A DNA stretch of 64,000 nucleotides from Rhizophagus irregularis (taxonomy: Eukaryota; Glomeromycota; Glomeromycetes; Glomerales; Glomeraceae): contig NC_089451.1 of the NCBI RefSeq assembly GCF_026210795.1, forward strand, positions 2,960,001 to 3,024,000. The letters are read 5' to 3'. The notes under the pieces were generated by a model that saw nothing but the letters and a program-made list of their open reading frames with translations, had not been told where the DNA came from and made no database searches. This document shows positions 1-59,009 of this stretch, in pieces; position 1 is the stretch's first letter; the number at the start of each line of letters is the position of its first letter. Position numbers and translations under genes: made by a program.

Positions 1-11
1 TGCCTATCTTA

Positions 12-2543
12 TTAAAAGGAGTCAATCTTGCTGCATACACGATCAAGATCCTCTTCATCCCAGTCATCGATGAGTCCATTGGCGGCTTCCCATTCACGTT
101 CCATATCAGTTTTTGGACGTTCCTCGGGGATCTCTCGCGCTTTACCCTTATCTGCCCTCATAGTTTCATAACCAGAGGGGGTGGAAATAATCTCGGCATC
201 ACGATTATCCTTGTATATTCTTATTAAATCTGCGAGTTCTTTACGGCTAGGTATTTTAGGTAAGTATCCATTATATTCGATCCAGTCCTTGAAGCGGTCT
301 ACTACCTCCATAAGGTAGTACTGGTACTCGTCCTCAATACGCGTTGTGGGACATTCCTCTATTTCAAACGCGAGTATTTCCCAGTCATATTTGTCTGACG
401 CGTCTTGGTACTTGGCCCATAATTCCTTACCTGTATTGTAGAGATCATTGAAGGCCTGGTCTTTTGAATTTTTAACCCACGGTTTGCGATCCCATCGGTG
501 TCTTTCATGCCAAGCCCAATGCGCTCGAGTGCCTTCCTTTGGTTCAGGATCCCGGTCAACTTCTGGTTCTGTGTCGGGTTCTGGGATAAATTGCTCTTCA
601 GGAGCCGGTTCTGGGTCAGGCTTAGTGACAGATGCAGAAGATTCTGCGGGAGATTCGGGTTGTTGTTCAGGAGTTGGGTTCACAGTTGTAAAATCTGAGT
701 CTGATAATAAGTCGTCTAAGACGTCGTAGTTATCTGGCTCGGGGGCAGACGGTTTTTCAGGAACTGGGTTTGCAGTTGTAGAATCCGAGTCTGATAACAA
801 GTCATCTAAGACGTCGTAGTCATCTAGCTTGGGGGCAGATGGTTTTTCTTCCCTTAACTCTTGTAAACGTTCTTTTAAGTGGTCAGGCTTGGGTGGAAGC
901 AGTGGAGGAGTTTTGCGAATTACAGGTGCGGGTTTTTCTTCAACGGGTTCGGGTTTTTCCTCTGTGGGTTCGGGTTTTTTCTCAGCGGATTTTTCCTCAG
1001 CGGGTTCGGATTTTTCTTGTACGTCTTGTGAATTGTTAGCTGGATTATATATATTTGCCAAGAACTTATCCAAGGCATTGGGGTCTGATGCGGGTTTCTT
1101 AGAAGTCTCTATATCAATTCCTTCTATATCTATCTCGTCTGTTTCGTGGATCCAGTTTTTGCCGAGGTATTTATTGTAAAGATCCTCCCTGGATATACTA
1201 TATACTCGGGTTAACTTTTTATTTATATAAGTCCGATTACTATTTATACTCAACTCATTTGATAGGATTCTAGAAGCGTTTATCTTTGATAAGGGTGTAA
1301 TGCCACGAGTTTCGCAATATGAAGTATATACCCTATAAAATTCTTGAACAGGTAGGTCGGTCATATAATTTTTCACTATGAGGTATGTGTCCTTTATAAA
1401 TTGGAATAGCGGTGGAAGAGTTGAGATGATATGTTCCTGTTTGGATGTTGTCATGGGTGGCGGATTTCCATTGAAGTCTGAGTAAGTATTCGCAATGGCT
1501 CTCAAATAAGCATAGAATGCCTCACTGGCGCCTGGGTATTTCATAGCGTCACCGAGTTTTTTGAAGTAGTTGAGGTCTCCCTTGCGGGATGGTGACACAT
1601 CCAAGAACACTGTGCGCCTATCATCATTATCCACTCTGAGAGCATTTTCGTTGGTTAGGACGATAGTAGACATAAAGTTTTTATAATGTGTTGGTGTCTT
1701 GTATTTTTCATGGATTTCCATTATGTCACTCGTTACCTTATCCTTTAAAGAGCGATACAGATTATTCCACTGGCTTTTTTCCGTGGGCATTTCCTCGAGA
1801 AGAAGAAGAATCTTACCCTGTAATTGCCCATTGAAACTTCCACGAATCGTCTGAGGATCGCTGGTCTTATAAACGAGTTGAGTGCCTAGGACGCTGCGCT
1901 GAATGAAATCTGTTATAATGCCTTTGCCCCAACCCTGTCCAGATTTCAGGTAAAGGATCGAGTACATCTTCCTTCCAGCAGATACACCGGCCAACCACTT
2001 GATGATATACTCAGTGAGATTCCAATCACCCGAACACCAGATATCCTGAATGTGAGAGAAGATAAATTTAACCGCGAGGTGAATTGTAGACTCAAAGGTG
2101 GATATCGGACGCAAGACGTGGAGGAATCCCGGGAAGATATTTAGATAGAGTTGGCCGGTTAAGGATCTGAAGATTCGCTGTTTATGGGGATCACAGGTTG
2201 CATTACATACATCGGTATTCTCGACCATAAACCATTTGTAGATGTTGAACTCGGTCTTTTGAGAGGGTCCTTGTTCAGGTTGTGTGTAGAATACCTTCAT
2301 AATTGGACGGATAAGTTTACCAATATTTTTGTCAATAACGTGTTTCAAACTTTTACTATCCGGGTCCCACCAGAAAACCCCATGAGGATCTGCACAGGGA
2401 ATGAAATAACTGCAAAGATACCTCTTGGCTTGATCGAGGTCACTCATACTCTTTGCAGCGACAATAAGCCGTTTAAGCTCATTGATACTAAAGGCTTTCG
2501 TTTGTTCACCGAATTTGGGGATAACTTGAGCTTGAGTGGTCAT
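12..2543 (-). CDS. Superfamily-3-type helicase, element copy 1
   Basis: An 843-residue protein in one exon. Seen: a P-loop SGQGWGKG at residues 201-208, a Walker B ILLLLEEM at 245-252, a motif C-like strand TIVLTNEN at 293-300 ending in the diagnostic Asn, and a basic DDRR pair at 307-310 that could be the arginine finger. This order is that of SF3 helicases (P4/D5/NrS-1-type C-terminal helicase domains), which unwind DNA as ring-shaped hexamers during replication. Residues about 480-700 are low-complexity, rich in Pro, Glu and Asp. They include two copies of a module reading YDVLDDLLSDSD. The last 140 residues form a separate, charged, probably folded region that I do not recognise. No primase, HUH nuclease or transposase motif is visible. 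The start is the ATG at 2543, at a boundary shared with copy 2. The helicase class is well supported; the role in a mobile replicon is inferred. Confidence 0.8.
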   Translation of the reverse strand: MTTQAQVIPKFGEQTKAFSINELKRLIVAAKSMSDLDQAKRYLCSYFIPCADPHGVFWWDPDSKSLKHVIDKNIGKLIRPIMKVFYTQPEQGPSQKTEFNIYKWFMVENTDVCNATCDPHKQRIFRSLTGQLYLNIFPGFLHVLRPISTFESTIHLAVKFIFSHIQDIWCSGDWNLTEYIIKWLAGVSAGRKMYSILYLKSGQGWGKGIITDFIQRSVLGTQLVYKTSDPQTIRGSFNGQLQGKILLLLEEMPTEKSQWNNLYRSLKDKVTSDIMEIHEKYKTPTHYKNFMSTIVLTNENALRVDNDDRRTVFLDVSPSRKGDLNYFKKLGDAMKYPGASEAFYAYLRAIANTYSDFNGNPPPMTTSKQEHIISTLPPLFQFIKDTYLIVKNYMTDLPVQEFYRVYTSYCETRGITPLSKINASRILSNELSINSNRTYINKKLTRVYSISREDLYNKYLGKNWIHETDEIDIEGIDIETSKKPASDPNALDKFLANIYNPANNSQDVQEKSEPAEEKSAEKKPEPTEEKPEPVEEKPAPVIRKTPPLLPPKPDHLKERLQELREEKPSAPKLDDYDVLDDLLSDSDSTTANPVPEKPSAPEPDNYDVLDDLLSDSDFTTVNPTPEQQPESPAESSASVTKPDPEPAPEEQFIPEPDTEPEVDRDPEPKEGTRAHWAWHERHRWDRKPWVKNSKDQAFNDLYNTGKELWAKYQDASDKYDWEILAFEIEECPTTRIEDEYQYYLMEVVDRFKDWIEYNGYLPKIPSRKELADLIRIYKDNRDAEIISTPSGYETMRADKGKAREIPEERPKTDMEREWEAANGLIDDWDEEDLDRVCSKIDSF

Positions 2544-2712
2544 TTTTTCGTTCTATTAAATCGAGTACTAATTTATAGTTACCTAATCTTCAATTGCCGA
2601 ATATATTTTTTCCAAAGATCCGCGCTTCTACCCGGTTATCTCTCTGTGGCTTTACAGACCTTCTAGGGGCTATTAACCTACCTGTTTACTCGGTTTGCTA
2701 TCTCACTGCTTC
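2544..2712 (-). promoter_or_regulatory. Conserved leader upstream of helicase copy 1
   Basis: This stretch aligns closely with 5830-6000 upstream of copy 2, including the words CGAGTACTAATTTATAGTTA and CTTCTAGGGG. Conservation of non-coding sequence between the copies, next to an array that differs, suggests a promoter or 5' leader. No clear TATA box was identified. Confidence 0.4.
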
Positions 2713-2957
2713 CGACAGATGAATAGACTGAATCCTGATCATATGACAGATCTATGACAGAATGACAGATCTGGGGGGGTAAAATCAAAACTTTTTTCTG
2801 GGAGTATCCTCTCCCGATTTTTCTGAAACATCTGTCATATCCGTCATATCTGTCATACCCCTCTGATTCTATCGTATTTTCCTCTCTTTTCCCTTATTTC
2901 ATTCTTTTTTAGTATATTATTATATGACAGATGTTAATGACAGATGGTGACAGATAT
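2713..2957. repeat. Iteron-like array, word ATGACAGAT (copy 1)
   Basis: By eye there are about seven exact TGACAGAT words plus several one-base variants, in three clusters: direct at 2713-2770, inverted at 2829-2857 and direct at 2933-2957. A G7 run and the tract CTCTCTTTTCCCTTATTTC separate the clusters. The arrangement resembles initiator or transposase binding sites. One CTGAAACATCTG at 2823-2834 has the form used throughout copy 2. The function is inferred; the repeats are seen directly. Confidence 0.7.
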
Positions 2958-3055
2958 AGGGGATTCCCTACCCCACGGAGGGGAGATGTAGGTACTGCGA
3001 GGCCGCGAGGCCGAGGTGGGTTGAGCGTAGCGAGACACACTACCAGCCCGACGAC
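2958..3055. other. GC-rich element terminus, copy 1
   Basis: A GC-rich block with short inverted words (CCCCACGGAGGGG; GAGGCCGCGAGGCCGAGG). It matches 6250-6340 of copy 2 in order and spacing. It marks the outer end of the repeated unit and could fold into hairpins. A short reading frame on the minus strand across 2934-3185 is not supported, because copy 2 does not keep it. Confidence 0.5.
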
Positions 3056-3256
3056 TCGGATACCGAGATTGGAGTCGCTGTCCAAGTTTTGCTATTGCTC
3101 CTCTGGAAAATCTTGCGCCTGAATACTGTAATTCTTTGATATCCGGTCTTGTAGGTAAAGCACGGACAATCTTTGAATAAACCATTTGATGTATTTATGA
3201 ATTGTGTTCAGTTGTAATATAGGTTTTTTATACAAAAAATATAAGATAACTAAGAA
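3056..3256. other. Single-copy spacer between tandem elements
   Basis: About 200 bases between the two helicase units with no counterpart elsewhere in the window. The part nearest copy 1 is moderately GC-rich and the rest is A/T-rich. I see no gene. Confidence 0.4.
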
Positions 3257-3268
3257 GTGCTTATCTTA

Positions 3269-5829
3269 TTAAAAGGAGTCAATCTTGCTGCATACACGAT
3301 CAAGATCCTCTTCATCCCAGTCGTCGATGAGTCCATTGGCGGCTTCCCATTCACGTTCCATATCGGTTTTTGGACGTTCCTCGGGGATCTCTCGCGCTTT
3401 ACCCTTATCTGCCCTCATAGTTTCATAACCAGAGGGGGTGGGGATAATTTCAGCATCACGATTATCCTTGTATACTCTTATTAAATCCGTGAGTTCTTTA
3501 CGGCTAGGTGTTTTGGGTAAGTATCCATTATATTCGATCCAGTCCTTGAAGCGGTCTACTACTTCCCTAAGGTAGTACTGGTACTCGTCCTCAATACGCG
3601 TTGTGGAACATTCCTCTACTTCAAACGCAAGTATTTCCCAGTCATAGTCATCTGACGCATCTTGATACTTGGCCCATAATTCCTTACCTGTATTGTAGAG
3701 TTCATTGAAGACCTGGTCCTTTGAATTTTTAACCCACGGTTTGCGATCCCATCGGTGTCTTTTATGCCAAGCCCAGTGCGCTCGAGTGCCTTCCTTTGGT
3801 TCAGGATCCCGGTCGACTTCTGGTTCTGTGTCGGGTTCTGGGATAAGTTGCTCTTCGGGAGCCGGTTCTGGGTCAGGCTTAGTGACAGATGCAGAAGATT
3901 CTGCGGGAGACTCGGATTGTTGTTCAGGAGTTGGGTCCATGGTTGTAGAATCCGAGTCTGATAATAAGTCGTCTAAGATGTCATAGTTATCTGGCTCGGG
4001 GGTAGACGGTTTTTCAGGAACTAGAACCTCAGCAGATTCCTCGTCAGATAGATAACAGTCTGAGAAGTTATCTATAGGTTTATCGGTGTTTGACTCACTA
4101 GTATCTTCATCGGGATCCGGTTGTTCTTCCCTTAACTCTTGTGGACGTTCTTTAAGTGGTCAGGCTTGGGTGGAAGTGGTGGAGGAGTTTTGCGAATTAC
4201 AGGTTCGGGTTTTTCCTCAGCGGGTTTGGGTTTTTTCTCAGCGGGTTTTTCCTCAGCGGGTTCGAGTTTTTTCTCAGTGGGTTTTTCCTTAGCGGGTTTC
4301 TCTTGTATATCTTGTGAATTGTTAGCTGGATTATATATATTTGCCAAGAACTTATCCAAGGCATTGGGGTCTGATGCGGGTTTCTTAGAAGTCTCTATAT
4401 CAATTCCTTCTATGTCTATCTCGTCTGTTTCGTGGATCCAGTTTTTGCCGAGGTATTTCTTGTAAAGATCCTCCCTGGATATGCTGTAAACCCGTGGTGT
4501 CTTTCCACCCTTGCGTACTACTTTGCTATTTATACCCAACTCATTTGATAGGATTCTAGAAGCGTTTATCTTTGATAGAGGTGAAATGCAATGAGTTTCA
4601 CAATATGAAGTATATACCCTATAAAATTCTTGAACAGGTAGGTCGGTCATATAATTTTTCACTACGAGGTAAGTGTCCTTTATAAATTGGAATAGCGGTG
4701 GAAGAGTCGAGATGATATGTTCCTGTTTGGATGTTGTCATAGGTGGCGGATTTCCATTGAAGTCTGGGTAAGCATCCGCGATGGCTCTCAAATAAGCATA
4801 GAACGCCTCACTGGCGCCTGGGTATTTCATAGCGTCACCGAGTTTTTTGAAGTAGTTGAGGTCTCCCTTGCGGGATGGTGACACATCCAAGAACACTGTG
4901 CGCCTATCATCGTTCTCCACTCTGAGAGCATTTTCGTTGGTTAGGACGATAGTTGACATAAAGTTTTTGTAATGTGTTGGCGTCTTGTATTTTTCATGGA
5001 TTTCTATTATGTCACTCGTTACCTTATCCTTTAAAGAGCGATACAGATTATTCCACTGGCTTTTTTCCATGGGCATTTTCTCGAGGAGAAGAAGAACCTT
5101 ACCCTGTAATTGCCCATTGAAACTTCCAAGAATCGTTTGAGGATCGCTGGTCTTATAAACGAGTTGAGTGCCTAGGACGCTGCGCTGAATGAAATCTGTT
5201 ATAATACCTTTGCCCCAACCCTGTCCAGATTTCAGGTAAAGGATCGAGTACATCTTCCTTCCAGCAGATACACCGGCTAACCACTTGATGATATACTCAG
5301 TGAGATTCCAATCACCCGAACACCAGATATCCTGAATGTGAGAGAAGATAAATTTAACCGCGAGGTGAATTGTAGACTCAAAGGTAGATATCGGACGTAA
5401 GAAGTGGAGGAATCCCGGGAAGATATTTAGATAGAGTTGGCTGGTTAAGGATCTGAAGATTCGCTGTTTATGGGGATCACAGGTTGCATTACATACATCG
5501 GTATTCTCGACCATAAACCACTTGTAGATGTTGAACTCGGTCTTTTGAGAGGGTCCTTGTTCAGGTTGTGTGTAGAATGCCTTCGTGATTGGACGGATAA
5601 GTTTACCAATATTTTTGTCAATAACGTGTTTCAAACTTTTACTATCCGGGTCCCACCAGAAAACCCCATGAGGATCTGCACAGAGAATGAAATAACTGCA
5701 AAGATACCTCTTGGCTTGATCGAGATCATTCATACTCTTTGCAGCGACAATAAACCGTTTAAGCTCATAGATACTGAAGGCTTTCGTTTGTTCACCGAAC
5801 TTGGGGATAACTTGAGCTTGAGTGGTCAT
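3269..5829 (-). pseudogene. Helicase copy 2, frameshifted
   Basis: This copy is almost identical to copy 1 from its ATG at 5829. It keeps the P-loop, Walker B (here LLLLEKMP), motif C and the DDRR pair. Copy 1 has four T on the plus strand at the matching site. Here there are three (4151-4153), so the minus-strand frame shifts about 565 residues in and ends at 4132 after DHLKNVHKS. The remaining C-terminal part (3269 to about 4150) stays open in the shifted frame, and no other stop is seen. The linker between differs from copy 1: one acidic YDILDDLLSDSD module rather than two, plus a unique SDCYLSDEES stretch. The complete helicase domain lies before the break, so a truncated helicase could still be made. 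A sequencing error in a homopolymer is the main alternative. Confidence 0.75.
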
Positions 5830-32446: not shown

Positions 32447-34091
32447 TTAATTCACTTGATTATCAACCTTGTTTTCATCGTCGGTATCTAAATATCAGCA
32501 ATATAAATAATAATATAAATATTATTAGTATAATTAAATGTATAAAAATAAGTGGTAAATTATATTTAATGTACCTCTTAATTCTATTGAATTAGATACT
32601 TCCAAGTCGATTAATTGAGAGTCGCAAACTATTAAAACAATAAAAAGTTAATGATTATCAATTATTTAAAAAAATAAAAATGTTTAAAAATAGAAAATAC
32701 CTTCATTATTAACATATGAAGTAATAATGGATGAATTAACGGGTTTTGGTAATAAATTACTAAATGTAAACGCTCTACTAGTATATACAGCATCTGAATT
32801 CTTTTCATATGAAGGTGAGATATTTGGTATTTCCTTATCAGCTTCTTCAAATGCCGCTTTAATTTCTTTTCCTTTATAACCGAATTTTTCTATTCCATTA
32901 TTCCTATCTTCAATAGAGACAATCCAAAAATCAAATATATATTTTAATTCTTCGGCTGTTGGTCTTTCATTTGGATTGGCATTCATGCATTTATAAGCTA
33001 ATTTCTTATAAAATTCAGGAGTTCCTTTTCCAAATTCTGGTCTGAGTCCATTACATATGGCTAATGATAAGTTAAAATCATGCTTATTATTGTGAAAAGG
33101 TGGTCTTCCTGATGATAATTCGGCCATAATTACACCTACACTATAAATATCGGATGATTTTGTATATGATTCTCCGTTTAAGACTTCTGGTGCAATATAT
33201 GGCATTACTCCATATACTACTTTATCATCTGATTTTTGTTTATTTGCTGGTCCTGATAATCCAAAGTCTGAAACATAAGGGGTATTATTAATTTGTAAAA
33301 TATTACCACTATGAAAATCTTTATGGCAATATTCTAATTCATGTAATGAATTTAAGTCATATAATATAGTATACAAATAGATAATTTTATTTTTCCACAT
33401 AGTGTTGTTAAAGTTATTTGAAAGACTACTTCTCAAACTTCCTTCACCAGCAAATCGCATAATCATCATAAATTCTTTAGTTTCCGGGTGTTTAGTTAAT
33501 CCATGAAATTCTAATCCACCTCTATTAGAAATTTCCCAATGTATTTTAAGCTATATTTTAATAAAGTTAAAATAAAATAATTTAAATGATTATTAATATT
33601 AAACACCTAAATGAAATAAATTAAACAAGATACAAAATAGTATAAAAACGTACTTCATTTAAATATTTATCCGAGATATTCTGTGATCCATTTAACCTTT
33701 TTAAAGCAACTTCTATAGATTCGGTTTCTCTTTTTTTCCAACTTCCATCATCATTTTCATAGTACTCTGATTTGCCATCAATCCAAGTTGCACAATATAC
33801 TTTGGCAAATCCACCTTCACCAATTTCTTTTATATCTGTAAATCTATCAAATGGTACCCATTCAAGAAATTTATTGTTGTTATAAATTGATTTAATTTTT
33901 GCATTATACATTGTATCATACATTGTATCTTTTATAAACTTATCAATAACAGAATTTCCACTGGTACATCCTTCCATTATTCTAAATGGGTCACATTCTT
34001 TACACCATAATTCTTCAGTAAGGGGTTTATTACAATACGAACAATTTTTATGATTATCTGAGATTTTTAATTTACTATGTTCGGTTCCCAT
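32447..34091 (-). CDS. Protein kinase with WCxxC ribbon, four exons
   Basis: Exons on the minus strand: 34091-33654, 33550-32701, 32628-32575 and 32487-32447, joined by consistent GT/AG sites. The protein starts MGTEHSKL. CSYCNKPLTEELWCKEC is a putative zinc ribbon. The N-lobe follows: FTDIKEIGEGGFAKVY (glycine loop), VALKRL (beta-3 Lys) and YLNE. The C-lobe shows CHKDFHSGNIL (HKD in place of HRD), VSDFGLSGP (DFG), APEVL and DIYSVGVIM. The tail has AVYTSRAFTF and ends with the short exons SQLIDLEVSNSIELR and DTDDENKVDN. All catalytic residues except the HRD arginine are present, so it should be active. The family is greatly expanded in these fungi; its pathway is unknown. A TATAAATA box lies about 83 bases upstream. 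Confidence 0.85.
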
Positions 34092-34173
34092 TAGGTTATT
34101 TTCGTAATATACAGTATTTAAAAAAAGAAAAATCCAATTATCTTTTTTTTTAGACGAAATATTTTTTTTTTTA

Positions 34174-53921: not shown

Positions 53922-56900
53922 TTATAAATCATCAATTGCACAATCAAAACATTCAGAGGGAAGATCTTTTGTAAAAGAATTAAGTAATCGAGATGTATAA
54001 ACAGCTTGTGGGTGTGTGGTTGACTGGATATCTTTAATAGATATGGGATTTTCTTTTCTGTATTCTTCTGCTTCTTTAAATTGCTTTTCAATTTCATAAT
54101 GTTGTTGTTCCTTCTCAATTTTCATAATATATTTAAATTTTGATGCATTTGATATATATGAATTATAAAATAACCAAATAAATTCTTCAATTTTAAAAAC
54201 ATTTGGCCTATTAGTTGGATTTGAATTCCAACACTTTTTCATTAAATCAATATAACATTTTGGTGCTTTTGGCTCATTTATTTCAGGTCTAATTTCATTA
54301 CATATATCTAATGCCAAAAGTTTATCATGGGCGCGATCAGAAAAAGGTTGTTTTCCAGTTGCTACAAAATACATAATCATCCCAAAGCTATATATATCTG
54401 CTGCTTGAGTATAATGTCCACCTCTTAACACTTCAGGAGCTACATATGGCATAACTCCATAAATTTTTGTTTCATCATTATTACCGACTTCTTTACATAA
54501 TCCCATATCAGATATACATGTATTGTTATATTTGATATATTTAAATAATATGTTTCCTATATGAAAATCACGATGAACCATATGTTTTTGATGAATTTTT
54601 TTAAGACCTCTAATAATATCAATTAATATTTGTAATTTATTTAACCAATCAAAAACTTCATGATTTTTATATAAATAACCATTAAAATTTCCTCCTTCCG
54701 CACATTCAAGAATCATGATAAAATCCCCTGTATCCGGATTCTGAGATATCCCATATATTTTAATAATATCTTCACTTGAATATGCCCTATATGCTTTAAC
54801 CTATTAAAAATTTTGTATATAAATATAAATTACTATATTAAGTCATAAAGGAATTTTATATTCATACCTCATTTAAAAATTCATTAATGAAATTATGAGA
54901 GTTATGTAAGCATTTCAAAGCAACTTTCTTATATCTCCATATTGCTGAATATACTGTAGAAAAACCACCTCTGCCCATTTCTTTAATATCATTGAACTCA
55001 TTGTATGGTACCCAATTGAATTTAAAATCATCAATAAAATCAAAAATTTTCATACTTTTCTCATTTATTGAACATAGTAATTTGCACCATTTATATATTT
55101 CATTTGTATATTTCTCACCACAGTTCTTACAACACTTTTCAATATATTTCTCACAAAAAACCAAAATATAATCTTTAGTATTTGGATTTTGAGATATTCC
55201 ATAACTAATAATACCTTCTGTTAAATGTGATTTCATCTAAATATATACAAGATTTTAAATAAAATAATTTCATAATAGATAAATAGATAAAAACTTCATA
55301 CCTTATTTAAAAATTCAATAGAAACATTTTGTGAATTATAAAAAAATTTTAAAGTAACTCTTTTATTTAAATTTCTTTGATATTTTACTGATTCATTATT
55401 AAATGTTAATGGGCCATTACTCCATATTGCTGTAATAAAACTTTGTATTTCAGTTTCTTTAATATCAATAAACTGATTATATGGTATCCATTCAAACATT
55501 ATGTCCTGTGAGCTATTGATTAGCAATTGTTTTTCTTGAATAAAATCATCAATTTGCTTATTTCCACTGGTCCAATTTGTAAAACTGCTTTTCAAAAAAT
55601 CAATTTGACATGGTTTACACCATCTATACATTTTATCTGTATATTTTTCATCACATTTTAAACAATATATTTCAAAATAATTTTCATAAAAAACCAAAAT
55701 ATAATCTTTTGTATCTGGATTTTGAGACATTCCATAACTGACAATATCTTTTGGTTTAATCTATAATAATAAATTATATATTTTGTTAATAAAAATATTT
55801 CAAACTCAAAATTCAAATAAAACCCTATAAAAAATAAATGTCCAGAAATTGTCTAGAAAATATTTGATACAGTATTTGTCCGGAAATTGTCCAGTTGTTT
55901 GACACAATTTAAATTTTCAAAATTTTGTAATGTCCAGTTTCTGTCCAGAATATGTCCAGTATTATAATTCAGGACAATTTCAAGACAGACAAACCTGGAC
56001 AAATTCTGGATATAACAAAATTACGACAATTTGAACTGGACAATTTCCGGACATAACTAAATTCTGGATAAATTCAGGATGTTGGTTTCTAAAAAAGGAT
56101 AAATTAATTTTATAAAAAACTGTAAAAAGCAAAAAAATTGACATTCTAAACCTTCTTTGTCATATTAATTAAAATTGCAAAGGCAAAAATACTATAAATT
56201 TGTGATATAGTTTAAGTTAAAGTGGATATAGTAGTAATGATCATCAGCATCTGCTAATCATTTTTTATGGCAAATTCTTGATATATCCGAATTCTGGACA
56301 AATTCTGGACATATTCTGAATGTCAGAAATGGTCAAGATTTGGAACATTTCCTATACATTTTCCGGACAGTAAAAATGTCCAGAATTTGTAAAATTTATC
56401 CAGATATTTTCCAGACATATTCTGGACATTTATTTTTTATAGGGAAATATATACCTTATCTAAAAATTCATCAAGGATATCTAGTATATTATATAAATAT
56501 TTTAAAGTAACAGTTTTACATTTTCTTTCATATTTACTCAAACCTTTATTAAATGTTAATGGACCATCCTTCCATATTGCTGTAATAAAACCTTGTATAT
56601 CTGTCTCTTTAATGTTGAAAAACTGATTGTATGGTATCCATTCAAACACTGTATTCTGTGAGTTATCAATTTTCAATTGCTCTTTTTGAATAAAATCATC
56701 AATTTGCTTATTTCCACTGGTCCAATTTGTAAAACTGCTTTTCAAAAAATCAATTTGACATGGTTTACACCATTTATATATTTTATCTGTATATTTTTCA
56801 TCACATTTTAAACAATATATATTAAAATAAATTTCATGAAGAACCAAAATATAATCTTTTGTATCTGGATTTTGAGATATTCCATAACTGCCAATACCTT

Positions 56901-59009
56901 TTTGTTTAATCTATAATAATATAATATATATTATATTCAGTTAATAAAAATATTTTAAAATCAAGATTATAAATGGACTGCATACCTTATTTAAAAATTC
57001 AATAGAAACATTTTGTGAATTATAAAAAAATTTTAAAGTAACTCTTTTATTTAAATTTCTTTCATATTTTACTGATTTTTTATTAAATATTAATGGACCA
57101 TCCTTCCATCCTGTTTTAATAAAACCTTGTATATCTGTCTCTTTAATGGAGAAAAACTGATTGTATGGTATCCATTCAAATACTGTATTCCGTGGGTTAT
57201 CAATTTTCAATTGCTCTTTTTGAATAAAATCATCAATTTGCTTATTTCCACTGGTCCAATTTGTAAAATTACTTTTCAAAAAATCAGTTTGACATGATTT
57301 ACACCATTTATACATTACATTTGTGCCACAATTCTTGCAACATGTTTCAAGATATTTTTTATTAAAAACTAAAGCATAATTTTTTGTTTTTGGATTTTGA
57401 GATATTCCATAAATTCTAGTAATATCCTTTGATTTAATCTATAATAATATTCATTAGCATAAAGGATAAAAAGAAATGCTTACATAACTTAAACTCACAT
57501 ACCTTACTTAAAAACTCATTAGAAATATATTGTAAATTATATAGATATTTTAGGACAACTTTCCTATTAAATATTAAACTGTCTACTGAATCATTTGAAT
57601 CATCTGAATCACCTGAATCATCTGAATTATATGTAATATAGTTCCACTTTGCTGTGGCGCCAATATTTTTTATGTCTTCAATATCACTAAACTGATCATA
57701 TGGTATCCATTCAAATTGCTTTTCTTGAAGAAAAGCAATAAAAGTTTCAGCTTGTTTGATTTTACTGGTCCAGTCTACAAAATTACTTTTCAAGTAATTG
57801 ATATGACATAGTTTACACCATTTGTATATCTTAGCTGTATAATTCTCACCACAATTCTTACAAAATGTTTCAAGATATTTTTCACCAAAAATCAAAATAT
57901 AATCTTTTGTATCTGGATTTTGAGAAATTCCATAAAAATTACCATTAACATAACTATCCTTTGTTGTTAAATATGATTCCGCCTATTAAAATATATTATA
58001 TAAATAAAATAAAATGTATTTAAAAGAAACAAAAACTCCATGAATAGTTTATACCTTGTTTAAAAATTCATCAGGGTTATTTTGTGAGTTATAAAAAAAT
58101 TTCAAAACAAATTTTTTACGTAAATTTCTTTTATAATTTTTTGAATATTCACTATACTTTAATGGACCATCCTTCCATATTGCTGTAATAAAACCTTGTA
58201 TATTTGTCTCTTCAATGTCAATAAACTGATTATATGGTACCCATTCGAATACTGTATCCCATGGGGTATCAATTTTTAATTGCTCTTCTTGAATAAAACT
58301 ATCAATCATTTTATTTCCACTGGTCCAGTTTGTAAAATTTAAATGGATTATAAGACACGGTTTACACCATTTATATTTTTCATCTGTATATCCTTCACTA
58401 CATTTTTCACAATATTTTTCAAAATTTTTTTCATAGAATTTTTCATGAAAAACAAAAATATAATCTTTTGTATCATTATTCTGTGATATTCCATAACCAA
58501 TTCCTTCTGATTTAAACTATGATAGATATCATGATTATTAGTATATAAAGAAACTATAATTTAAAATCCAAAATTTATAAATAAATTTAATACCTTATTT
58601 AAAAATTCAATTTTTATTGAATATAATTTCGTCTATTAAATTACACACACAAGTAAATAAATATATAAATAAATATAAAAATTATACATATTTATTTTTT
58701 TAAAAAAAAAAATCTCCGTACCATGTTTAAATATTTTAAAGCAACTTTTCTATTCGATTTTCTCTCCCATTTCTTTTTATTAATATTAAAATGTAATGGC
58801 CCATTCTTCCATGTTGCTGTAGAAAATTCATATCCTATTTCTTTAATATCACTAAACTGATTATATGGTATCCATTCAAATATTATATTGTCTGATACAT
58901 TTGATTGGTTTTTTTGAATGAATGCATCAATTTCTTTATTTCCACTGGACCAATTTTTAGAATTATCCTTTAAATAATTTATTATATCTTTATTATCTAT
59001 TTCCTCCAT
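53922..59009 (-). CDS. Nine-exon kinase with tandem N-lobe modules
   Basis: Exons on the minus strand: 59009-58722, 58632-58594, 58516-58055, 57982-57503, 57438-56986, 56910-56455, 55760-55302, 55236-54868 and 54800-53922. All lengths are multiples of three and all introns are phase 0, giving about 1294 residues without a stop. Exons 3-8 repeat one module: YGISQNPDTKDYILVF (the strands that normally follow the N-lobe helix), a CxxC...WCxxC ribbon, NWTSGNKQIDDFIQ, FEWIPYNQF-DIKE, a beta-3 V(T/A)LK and EFLNK. Exons 1-2 supply a shorter first module. Only exon 8 has a normal glycine loop (MGRGGFSTVYSAIW) and VALK. Exon 9 gives the C-lobe: HRDFHIGNIL, ISDMGLCK (DMG for DFG), APEVL, DIYSFGMIMY and an AVYTSRLL tail. 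The terminal kinase should be active; the modules before it look like pseudo-N-lobes. Single-transcript status is inferred from phase and reading frame. Separate dead genes are the alternative. Confidence 0.7.
55823..56444. mobile_element. CCCTATAA-ended MITE in a kinase intron
   Basis: The 622-bp element has perfect ends CCCTATAAAAAATAAATGTC and the inverse, with AAA on both sides. Inside, TGTCCAGAA, TCTGGACA and variants recur many times in both orientations, clustered toward the ends. It lies in the intron between exons 6 and 7 of the kinase gene, its right end ten bases from the exon 6 boundary. It shares the outer CCCTATAA with the 35.5- and 44.8-kb elements but not the internal word. 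Confidence 0.8.

Follow-up and report, generated by a model that had tools for sequence, protein, structure and literature searches.

A gene encoding seven kinase N-lobes in a row before a single C-lobe is predicted on the minus strand, 59009 to 53922, of the window (the whole analysed stretch, 64,000 nucleotides of Rhizophagus irregularis contig NC_089451.1). It looks like one long kinase, with a full-length frame predicted across the modules. The same serial-N-lobe architecture is present at dozens of loci and is not unique to the window gene; the oddity of a single locus, as the preliminary description of this DNA had it, is not upheld. The architecture looks real and under selection. The terminal domain is of a known kind, a protein kinase; by its sequence features, the serial pseudo-N-lobe whole is a variant of an expanded fungal kinase family.

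Nine GT-AG exons, all in phase 0, join into a predicted single frame of 1,294 codons, the sole stop of which is terminal. Exon lengths are 288, 39, 462, 480, 453, 456, 459, 369 and 879 nt (E1 to E9), every one divisible by three. The N-lobes are encoded by E1 with E2 and by E3, E4, E5, E6, E7 and E8, the one C-lobe by E9. The string of modules makes up the N-terminal three quarters of the predicted protein. A four-cysteine ribbon precedes six of the seven N-lobes, and a WTS helix also precedes five of those six. Beta-3 lysine is present in 7/7. The glycine loop is intact only in E8 (GRGGFSTVY) and shortened or lost in N-lobes 1–6. The catalytic loop and the DFG position (DMG, 54501–54509) each occur once, both in E9. 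Exon lengths and phases, the seven modules with their lysine, the loss of the loop from the first six and the single terminal catalytic loop had all been given in the preliminary description, which names no strand, and recur in the spliced translation. An EFLN helix in every module had been claimed too; E4 has EFLSK and E6 EFLDK. In 'EFLNK' the final residue marks the alpha-C-Glu position: Glu in E8 and Lys in E2–E7. E2 (39 nt) interrupts alpha-C of the first lobe; most first exons read in other arrays are uninterrupted there. The modules are 48 to 73% identical to exon 7. Six exon open reading frames (ORFs) of the gene, in one shared frame, are 154 to 292 aa long and exceed the maximum from 2,000 base shuffles of the region (longest ORF 140 aa, mean of maxima 65).

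The make-up of a module follows from comparison with an ordinary kinase of the same window (32684–34100), in which the order is four-cysteine ribbon, TSGN, EWVPF, N-lobe, intron after the alpha-C Glu, beta-4/beta-5 and C-lobe. Introns of the array and of this single kinase are at the same place, directly after the alpha-C-Glu codon. YGISQNPDTKDYILVF, formerly taken for the start of the next lobe, is therefore read as beta-4/beta-5 of the lobe whose alpha-C closes the previous exon. Since it belongs to the same lobe across the intron, the spliced array lobes are complete (beta-1 to beta-5 and alpha-C). By sequence, what divides EFLNK from YGISQNPDTKDYILVF is the edge of an exon and not that of a domain. 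Because the first exon is without beta-4/beta-5 and the last exon opens with that pair, the simple reading is that the halves of a lobe pair across the intron; a circularly permuted lobe within one exon was rejected on these grounds. The 5′ part of an inner exon resembles a C-lobe exon (end of alpha-C, beta-4, beta-5), the ribbon follows where the hinge is expected, and the 3′ part resembles a first exon (WTSGN helix, EWIPYNQF, beta-1 to beta-3, alpha-C). An inner exon is thus a hybrid of both halves of an ordinary gene. The post-alpha-C junction is common in the kinase family, because about 136 of 147 listed matches of a genome scan with PF07714 start at profile positions 43–73 (counted by eye; best 145 candidates). 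The window gene has the two-Cys-pair ribbon, TSGN helix, EW[IV]P and intron after alpha-C of ordinary ribbon-TSGN kinases, with seven N-lobes in place of one; exon 1 is without the ribbon and exon 8 without TSGN.

Both lobes and a glycine loop, as in an active kinase, are not found in the inner modules, and no C-lobe stands between modules of the window gene. The upstream lobes should therefore not act as ATP-using domains, since their glycine loop is shortened or lost and a C-lobe is absent. Multiple pseudo-N-lobes on one C-lobe, part of one of two earlier suggestions, are supported. No single module exon, exon 8 included, reaches the Pfam kinase cut-off; domain annotation would consequently tend to show a long, featureless stretch followed by a kinase. 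PDB and Pfam searches with modules gave matches below the cut-offs throughout (eL43 ribosomal ribbon at E 0.28, HypA, C2H2 fingers, RE_NgoBV, VHS). No Pfam ribbon model scores above its cut-off on the modules; the ribbon Cys pairs are nearly invariant. Over residues 1–960 the curated cut-off is reached by PF19501 alone (22.2 vs 22.1 bits, whole protein), with no stretch significant alone, and this match upstream of the kinase was treated as chance.

The terminal domain looks like a protein kinase of the tyrosine-kinase-like (TKL) type. PF07714 matches the full protein at E 1.7e-42, over residues 963–1208 of 1,294 and profile positions 4–256 of 258 (both lobes). GRGGFSTVY, VALK, the alpha-C Glu (FLNE), HRDFHIGN, DMG (Met for Phe) and APE are present, and the kinase is active-looking by these residues. 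PDB matches are TAK1, Roco4, CTR1, RIPK1 and B-RAF, with EGFR/ITK/SYK and ROS; EGFR has the top score, summed over two copies in one chain, and many of the remaining matches are TKL kinases. Most array C-lobes retain HRD, N, D(M)G and APE. DFG reads DMG in nearly all array C-lobes where it is found; the single kinase of the window has DFG. Some array C-lobes carry HCD, HHD or HCY in place of HRD.

One genome was searched (146.7 Mb in 32 contigs). For R. irregularis an assembly of 32 chromosomes and an expanded repertoire of 2,533 kinases have been published (PMC10234402). Queries were exon 7 and two further modules, each scoring only 150 candidates, so that counts from them are lower bounds. 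Exon 7 gave 151 matches (150 of 4,172 first-look candidates scored); the two others are reported with 150 matches each. The three queries pooled, with hand-copied coordinates, mark at least 268 distinct module places on at least 23 of the 32 contigs. Clustered at 2.5 kb, these form at least 122 clusters, at least 65 with two or more modules and at least 37 with three or more. Median module spacing is 538 bp among the matches listed. Across the genome, 70 sites match the ribbon motif YKWCKPC exactly at the DNA level vs 0 for the reversed pattern. Reading of 33 fetched stretches (numbered with the prefix L) yielded 34 arrays of 3 to 11 module ORFs in a row, closed by a C-lobe. The choice of arrays was not random but drew on clusters of the best matches, and the profiles for ORF reading were built from the window and L001–L010. 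Closure by a C-lobe is part of the definition of an array; the C-lobe is broken in L022 and L026. Each ORF fragment of a broken module is a unit in these counts; in L002 one ORF comprises two modules. Excluded are the first array of L001 (one edge module), the second of L013 (one module), plus-strand fragments of L010, rows without a closing C-lobe (L017, L031) and matches to C-lobes of other kinases (plus strands of L021 and L024).

Variants of the plan were seen in three stretches. In L031 (G000:C28:3001501-3008500), positions 1–4459 hold a kinase in which a long unassigned N-terminal region precedes one N-lobe and a pseudo-C-lobe (HCDLNSSN, with ANF in place of DFG); the open frame then continues into ribbon-N-lobe modules, so that the order of fusion differs. 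In L033 (plus strand, 2100–2895) the last module ORF carries an Asp-rich low-complexity insert of ~90 residues before beta-4. In L004 (plus strand, 3772–4863) two modules lie ~1.1 kb apart where a short intron would be usual; the next module has an in-frame stop.

Position in the array predicts the state of the glycine loop. It is intact in the C-lobe-adjacent N-lobe of 33/34 arrays vs 2/186 upstream module ORFs (Fisher p 1e-35), the two being the middle module of L021 and the fourth module of L023. The loop pattern was loosened after L019, L020 and L028 of the hold-out, each different by one position (DKGGFSTVY, DKGGFATVY, GGFATVN), had been seen, and the hold-out is not blind. By the strict pattern the loop is found in 13/13 last lobes of the first set and 15/19 of L011–L030, with 2 upstream matches. 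The minus-strand array of L021 is the sole one of the 34 with a degenerate loop in the last lobe; its C-lobe has NMG for DMG, and both catalytic halves would thus have decayed. This distribution is also an argument that the N-lobe regularly joined to the C-lobe is the last one rather than any lobe upstream of it. Residue columns (195 inner rows, first exons included; 35 last rows) are as follows: the loop Gly columns read 72/180 inner vs 29/32 last and 54/179 vs 31/32, the beta-3 Lys 157/181 (87%) vs 33/33, the alpha-C Glu 84/164 vs 29/32. Ribbon Cys are retained in 160/161, 160/161, 162/165 and 163/166 inner modules (at least 98%).

Splicing signals accompany the modules. The codon after the alpha-C position starts with GT in 190/196 modules, most commonly GTATGA. 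An in-frame TAG (phase-0 acceptor) directly precedes 136/180 module ORFs vs 340/1,565 ORFs of the same DNA (Fisher p 1e-46; the background includes the modules themselves). Measurable introns have a median of 71 bp (n=134); 92/134 are not a multiple of three, and retention of these would shift the frame. Met occurs before the WTSGN motif in 27/32 first exons and between acceptor and YGIS in 14/119 inner exons. That modules are separate genes was rejected on the few Met in inner exons, the 71-bp introns and the lack of intervening C-lobes. That alternative first lobes each make an active kinase was rejected because the loop stands only beside the C-lobe. In L022, L012 and L032, most clearly in L022, two units are joined without an intron at the module junction; that of L022 is, by reading, as long as the spliced junctions of its relatives. 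Intron loss through spliced RNA is the usual, unproved reading of such junctions. Divisibility by 3 of 116 of 116 exons holds by construction, the ends having been set in one frame, and is not used as evidence.

The ratio of nonsynonymous to synonymous substitution (dN/dS) was estimated with the codon model GY94, F3x4, on the most similar pairs (45 C-lobe, 45 last N-lobe, 160 inner). This model replaced NG86 because third positions are about 84% A+T. For disjoint pairs dN/dS is 0.16 in C-lobes (10 pairs), 0.22 in last N-lobes (9) and 0.43 in inner modules (27); 21 of the 27 disjoint inner pairs are below 1, 12 significantly, and 0 are significantly above 1. At total distance t 0.5–0.8 the values are 0.20 (C-lobe), 0.28 (last N-lobe) and 0.38 (inner); at t 0.8–1.2 they are 0.14, 0.20 and 0.15. 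A value of 1.53 in a low-dS bin (16 pairs) carries a bias because pairs were binned on dS; the recomputation used total distance and disjoint pairs. Within inner modules, pooled NG86 values are lowest in the helix (0.36) and beta-4/beta-5 (0.35), the most conserved parts, and intermediate in the ribbon region (inner 0.63 vs last 0.70); the former ATP loop gives 0.81 inner vs 0.44 in last lobes, the insert between beta-2 and beta-3 0.87 vs 0.80. Under simulated neutral drift of 0.05 substitutions per site a stop is gained in 138/150 modules. Among the rows listed by the three module searches (151, 150 and 150 matches reported), stops are seen in 3, 3 and 4; these rows are the best-scoring ones and biased to intact units. 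The preliminary description had named dead separate genes among the findings that would overturn it; here most modules read have open frames, and except at the shortest distances dN/dS stays below 1.

The arrays probably originated by a fusion that deleted the C-lobe and the intergenic DNA between neighbouring kinases, followed by exon duplication. The hybrid make-up of the inner exon points to such an ancestral fusion, as the preliminary description had proposed for a set of kinase genes, and the proposal is supported by the anatomy. A deletion would have fused the beta-5/hinge point of the C-lobe exon of one kinase to the first-exon ribbon of the next. The product would be a symmetric exon of phase 0-0, able to multiply, perhaps by unequal exchange in the short introns. 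The nearest relative of a last module is the last module of another array in 27/31 compared. For 142 inner modules it is an inner module of the same array in 63, an inner module of another array in 60, and a first or last module in the rest. This pattern suggests that whole arrays were copied and inner exons multiplied locally.

The whole is best explained, with a probability of about 0.55, as a long kinase of fusion origin whose inner N-lobes are docking or allosteric modules gating the terminal kinase. The last, intact N-lobe would pair with the single C-lobe into a TKL-type kinase. The inner N-lobes, with nucleotide use lost, would now be protein-binding units; they would most likely bind other N-lobes of the same large family, or their own terminal kinase, by the N-lobe/alpha-C surface. 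The array would then be a multivalent scaffold that gates the terminal kinase. TKL kinases such as RAF form allosteric dimers by the N-lobe/alpha-C surface, and RAF dimerisation is driven by contacts of the N-lobe. Docking or allosteric modules are favoured because regulation of TKL and EGFR-type kinases acts through the N-lobe. Several results weigh against this explanation. Inner modules are less constrained than the last N-lobe (0.43 vs 0.22). The closest inner pairs (t <0.3) have a dN/dS of 1.10 (15 overlapping pairs), and 16/160 inner pairs exceed 1, one of them significantly. Very recent copies may accordingly be under little constraint, and new module copies may be free for a while, or diversifying. 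Broken modules or C-lobes occur in at least eight of the fetched stretches (L003, L004, L011, L015, L017, L022, L025, L026), so a share of the arrays is damaged or contains sequencing errors. The AlphaFold model of exon 7, made with seven other window sequences, is poor (mean pLDDT, a confidence score, 57), and Foldseek with the exon 7 model gave 299 matches, none at E <= 0.001. The structure prediction of a module proposed beforehand thus places strands and alpha-C as in an N-lobe, at a confidence too weak to help; the inner-module fold is drawn from sequence homology and predicted secondary structure.

The main rival is a decoy or sensor array, in which pseudo-N-lobes mimic kinase targets, bind foreign or non-self proteins (plant, bacterial, other fungal) and switch on the terminal kinase; it is regarded as possible and clearly less probable than gating by docking modules. 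The partial kinase units of plant tandem kinase resistance proteins follow a comparable logic. Module number (3 to 11 module ORFs) and loop sequences differ between arrays, conservation is lowest in the former ATP loop and the beta-2/beta-3 insert (0.81 and 0.87), the youngest inner pairs lie at about 1.1, and 1/160 inner pairs exceeds 1 significantly. In R. irregularis, kinase genes of high copy number are described as strain-specific accessory sets with a proposed role in perception (PMC8647823). However, a significant excess of dN over dS is found in 0/27 disjoint inner pairs, and the least conserved parts may be merely relaxed, the insert being equally variable in last lobes (0.80). Symmetric 0-0 exons could instead serve alternative splicing, any subset being skippable to give kinases with a varied number of modules. 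Phase-0 donors (190/196) and in-frame TAG acceptors (136/180) suit such cassettes, and the skipping of all inner exons leaves a first exon and a C-lobe exon, the plan of an ordinary family kinase. Upstream lobes often spliced to the C-lobe should, however, keep the glycine loop, and 184/186 module ORFs do not; skips that retain the last module are still compatible with the loop rule. Symmetric exons are equally expected from duplication inside a phase-0 intron, and the cassette reading is held to be unlikely.

A graveyard of kinase fragments, that is, unexpressed or decaying tandem duplicates without function, would account for the lost glycine loops, for the broken units in the eight stretches named above and for youngest inner pairs near 1. 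It is most improbable, since frames are mostly open, splice sites and ribbon cysteines are conserved and dN/dS falls below 1 at larger distances; nor is the position rule expected from drift. Tandem repeats are prone to misassembly, but the window modules differ from each other (48 to 73% identity to exon 7) and module matches lie on at least 23 contigs; an assembly artefact is hardly credible. A broader proposal is offered tentatively. The N-lobe may have become a free-standing repeat, like ankyrin or LRR units, strung with ribbons into recognition arrays of variable length wired to a kinase; this would be a receptor class of arbuscular mycorrhizal (AM) fungi in dozens of genes, hardly seen by domain models.

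To our knowledge, the two-lobed kinase fold is usually treated as indivisible, and what pseudokinases lose is residues rather than a whole lobe. In the arrays a single lobe, without the other, has been multiplied, is conserved and stands in a set order ahead of an active-looking kinase; this recurs at dozens of loci. Should the proteins exist as read, the N-lobe can be a stable, selectable module, and the arrays are a natural set for the study of N-lobe-mediated regulation. They may also give a testable function to part of the huge, unexplained kinase repertoire of AM fungi. Kinases are among the high-copy families of R. irregularis, and perception has been proposed as their role (PMC8647823; also PMC10234402, PMC4219462).

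Table. Features of the window gene and its surroundings (window positions).
Feature	Position	Strand	Basis
Exon 1: start codon, WSSGN helix, EWIPYNQF, N-lobe 1 to beta-3 lysine (VALKYLNM); no ribbon; glycine loop degenerate (IGYEFSTATW)	58722..59009	-	translation; first exons of other arrays compared
Exon 2, 39 nt, TKLYSIKIEFLNK: remainder of alpha-C, N-lobe 1	58594..58632	-	ATAG acceptor, GTATTA donor, phase 0
Exon 3, inner: beta-4/5 of lobe 1, four-Cys ribbon, WTSGN helix, N-lobe 2 to alpha-C	58055..58516	-	
Exon 4, inner: N-lobe 3; helix variant WTSKI; Asp/Ser-rich insert between beta-2 and beta-3	57503..57982	-	
Exon 5, inner: N-lobe 4	56986..57438	-	
Exon 6, inner: N-lobe 5	56455..56910	-	
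MITE-like element, intron between exons 6 and 7: 44-nt terminal inverted repeats, 91% complementary	55823..56444	.	
Exon 7, inner: N-lobe 6	55302..55760	-	AlphaFold model of low confidence
Exon 8, last module: beta-4/5 (lobe 6), ribbon, N-lobe 7 carrying an intact glycine loop, the VALK lysine and the alpha-C Glu; WTSGN absent	54868..55236	-	
Glycine loop GRGGFSTVY, sole intact one of the gene	54949..54975	-	translation; coordinates hand-counted
Exon 9: beta-4/5 (N-lobe 7), hinge, C-lobe with HRDFHIGN, DMG and APE, C-terminal tail, stop	53922..54800	-	PF07714 E 2e-34
Catalytic loop HRDFHIGN	54552..54575	-	translation; coordinates hand-counted
Comparison kinase, not in array: single N-lobe, ribbon, TSGN, GEGGFAKVY; intron; HKDFH, DFG	32684..34100	-	

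The element resembling a miniature inverted-repeat transposable element (MITE) is 622 bp long and contains internal GTCCAGAA-type repeats. Its relatives lie on many contigs (134 matches among those listed, from 40 scored candidates); one listed copy on the same contig is 86% identical over the full length.

The arrays share with the expanded TKL kinases of R. irregularis the ribbon, TSGN helix, EW[IV]P, kinase domain and intron after alpha-C. Those kinases have one N-lobe with a glycine loop; the arrays have three to about twelve, as a rule only the last with the loop. RAF, RIPK1, TAK1 and other TKL kinases are matched by the terminal kinase in the PDB, from which the array kinase differs by DMG for DFG; we know of no tandem N-lobes in them. 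Serial N-lobe arrays were not found described in titles and abstract starts of open-licence PubMed Central papers, in keeping with the earlier statement that no such kinase architecture had been described. Searches of papers on wheat tandem kinases yielded no passage on partial kinase units. Rwt4 is described as a protein of 895 aa with putative tandem kinase domains (PMC10027608). Plant tandem kinases have two or more kinase or pseudokinase domains per chain; the window gene has one C-lobe. MLKL-like proteins with Sel1 repeats are reported only in Glomeromycotina (PMC8778642). Both they and the arrays are kinase-related signalling families expanded in the same fungi; the MLKL-like proteins are described by their Sel1 repeats. 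Pseudokinase-kinase tandems (JAK JH2-JH1) and plant WTK/TKP proteins likewise hold inactive kinase-derived units in cis with an active kinase. Their partner units, however, are whole or nearly whole kinase domains, whereas the units of the arrays are N-lobes alone, in long rows and alternating with ribbons.

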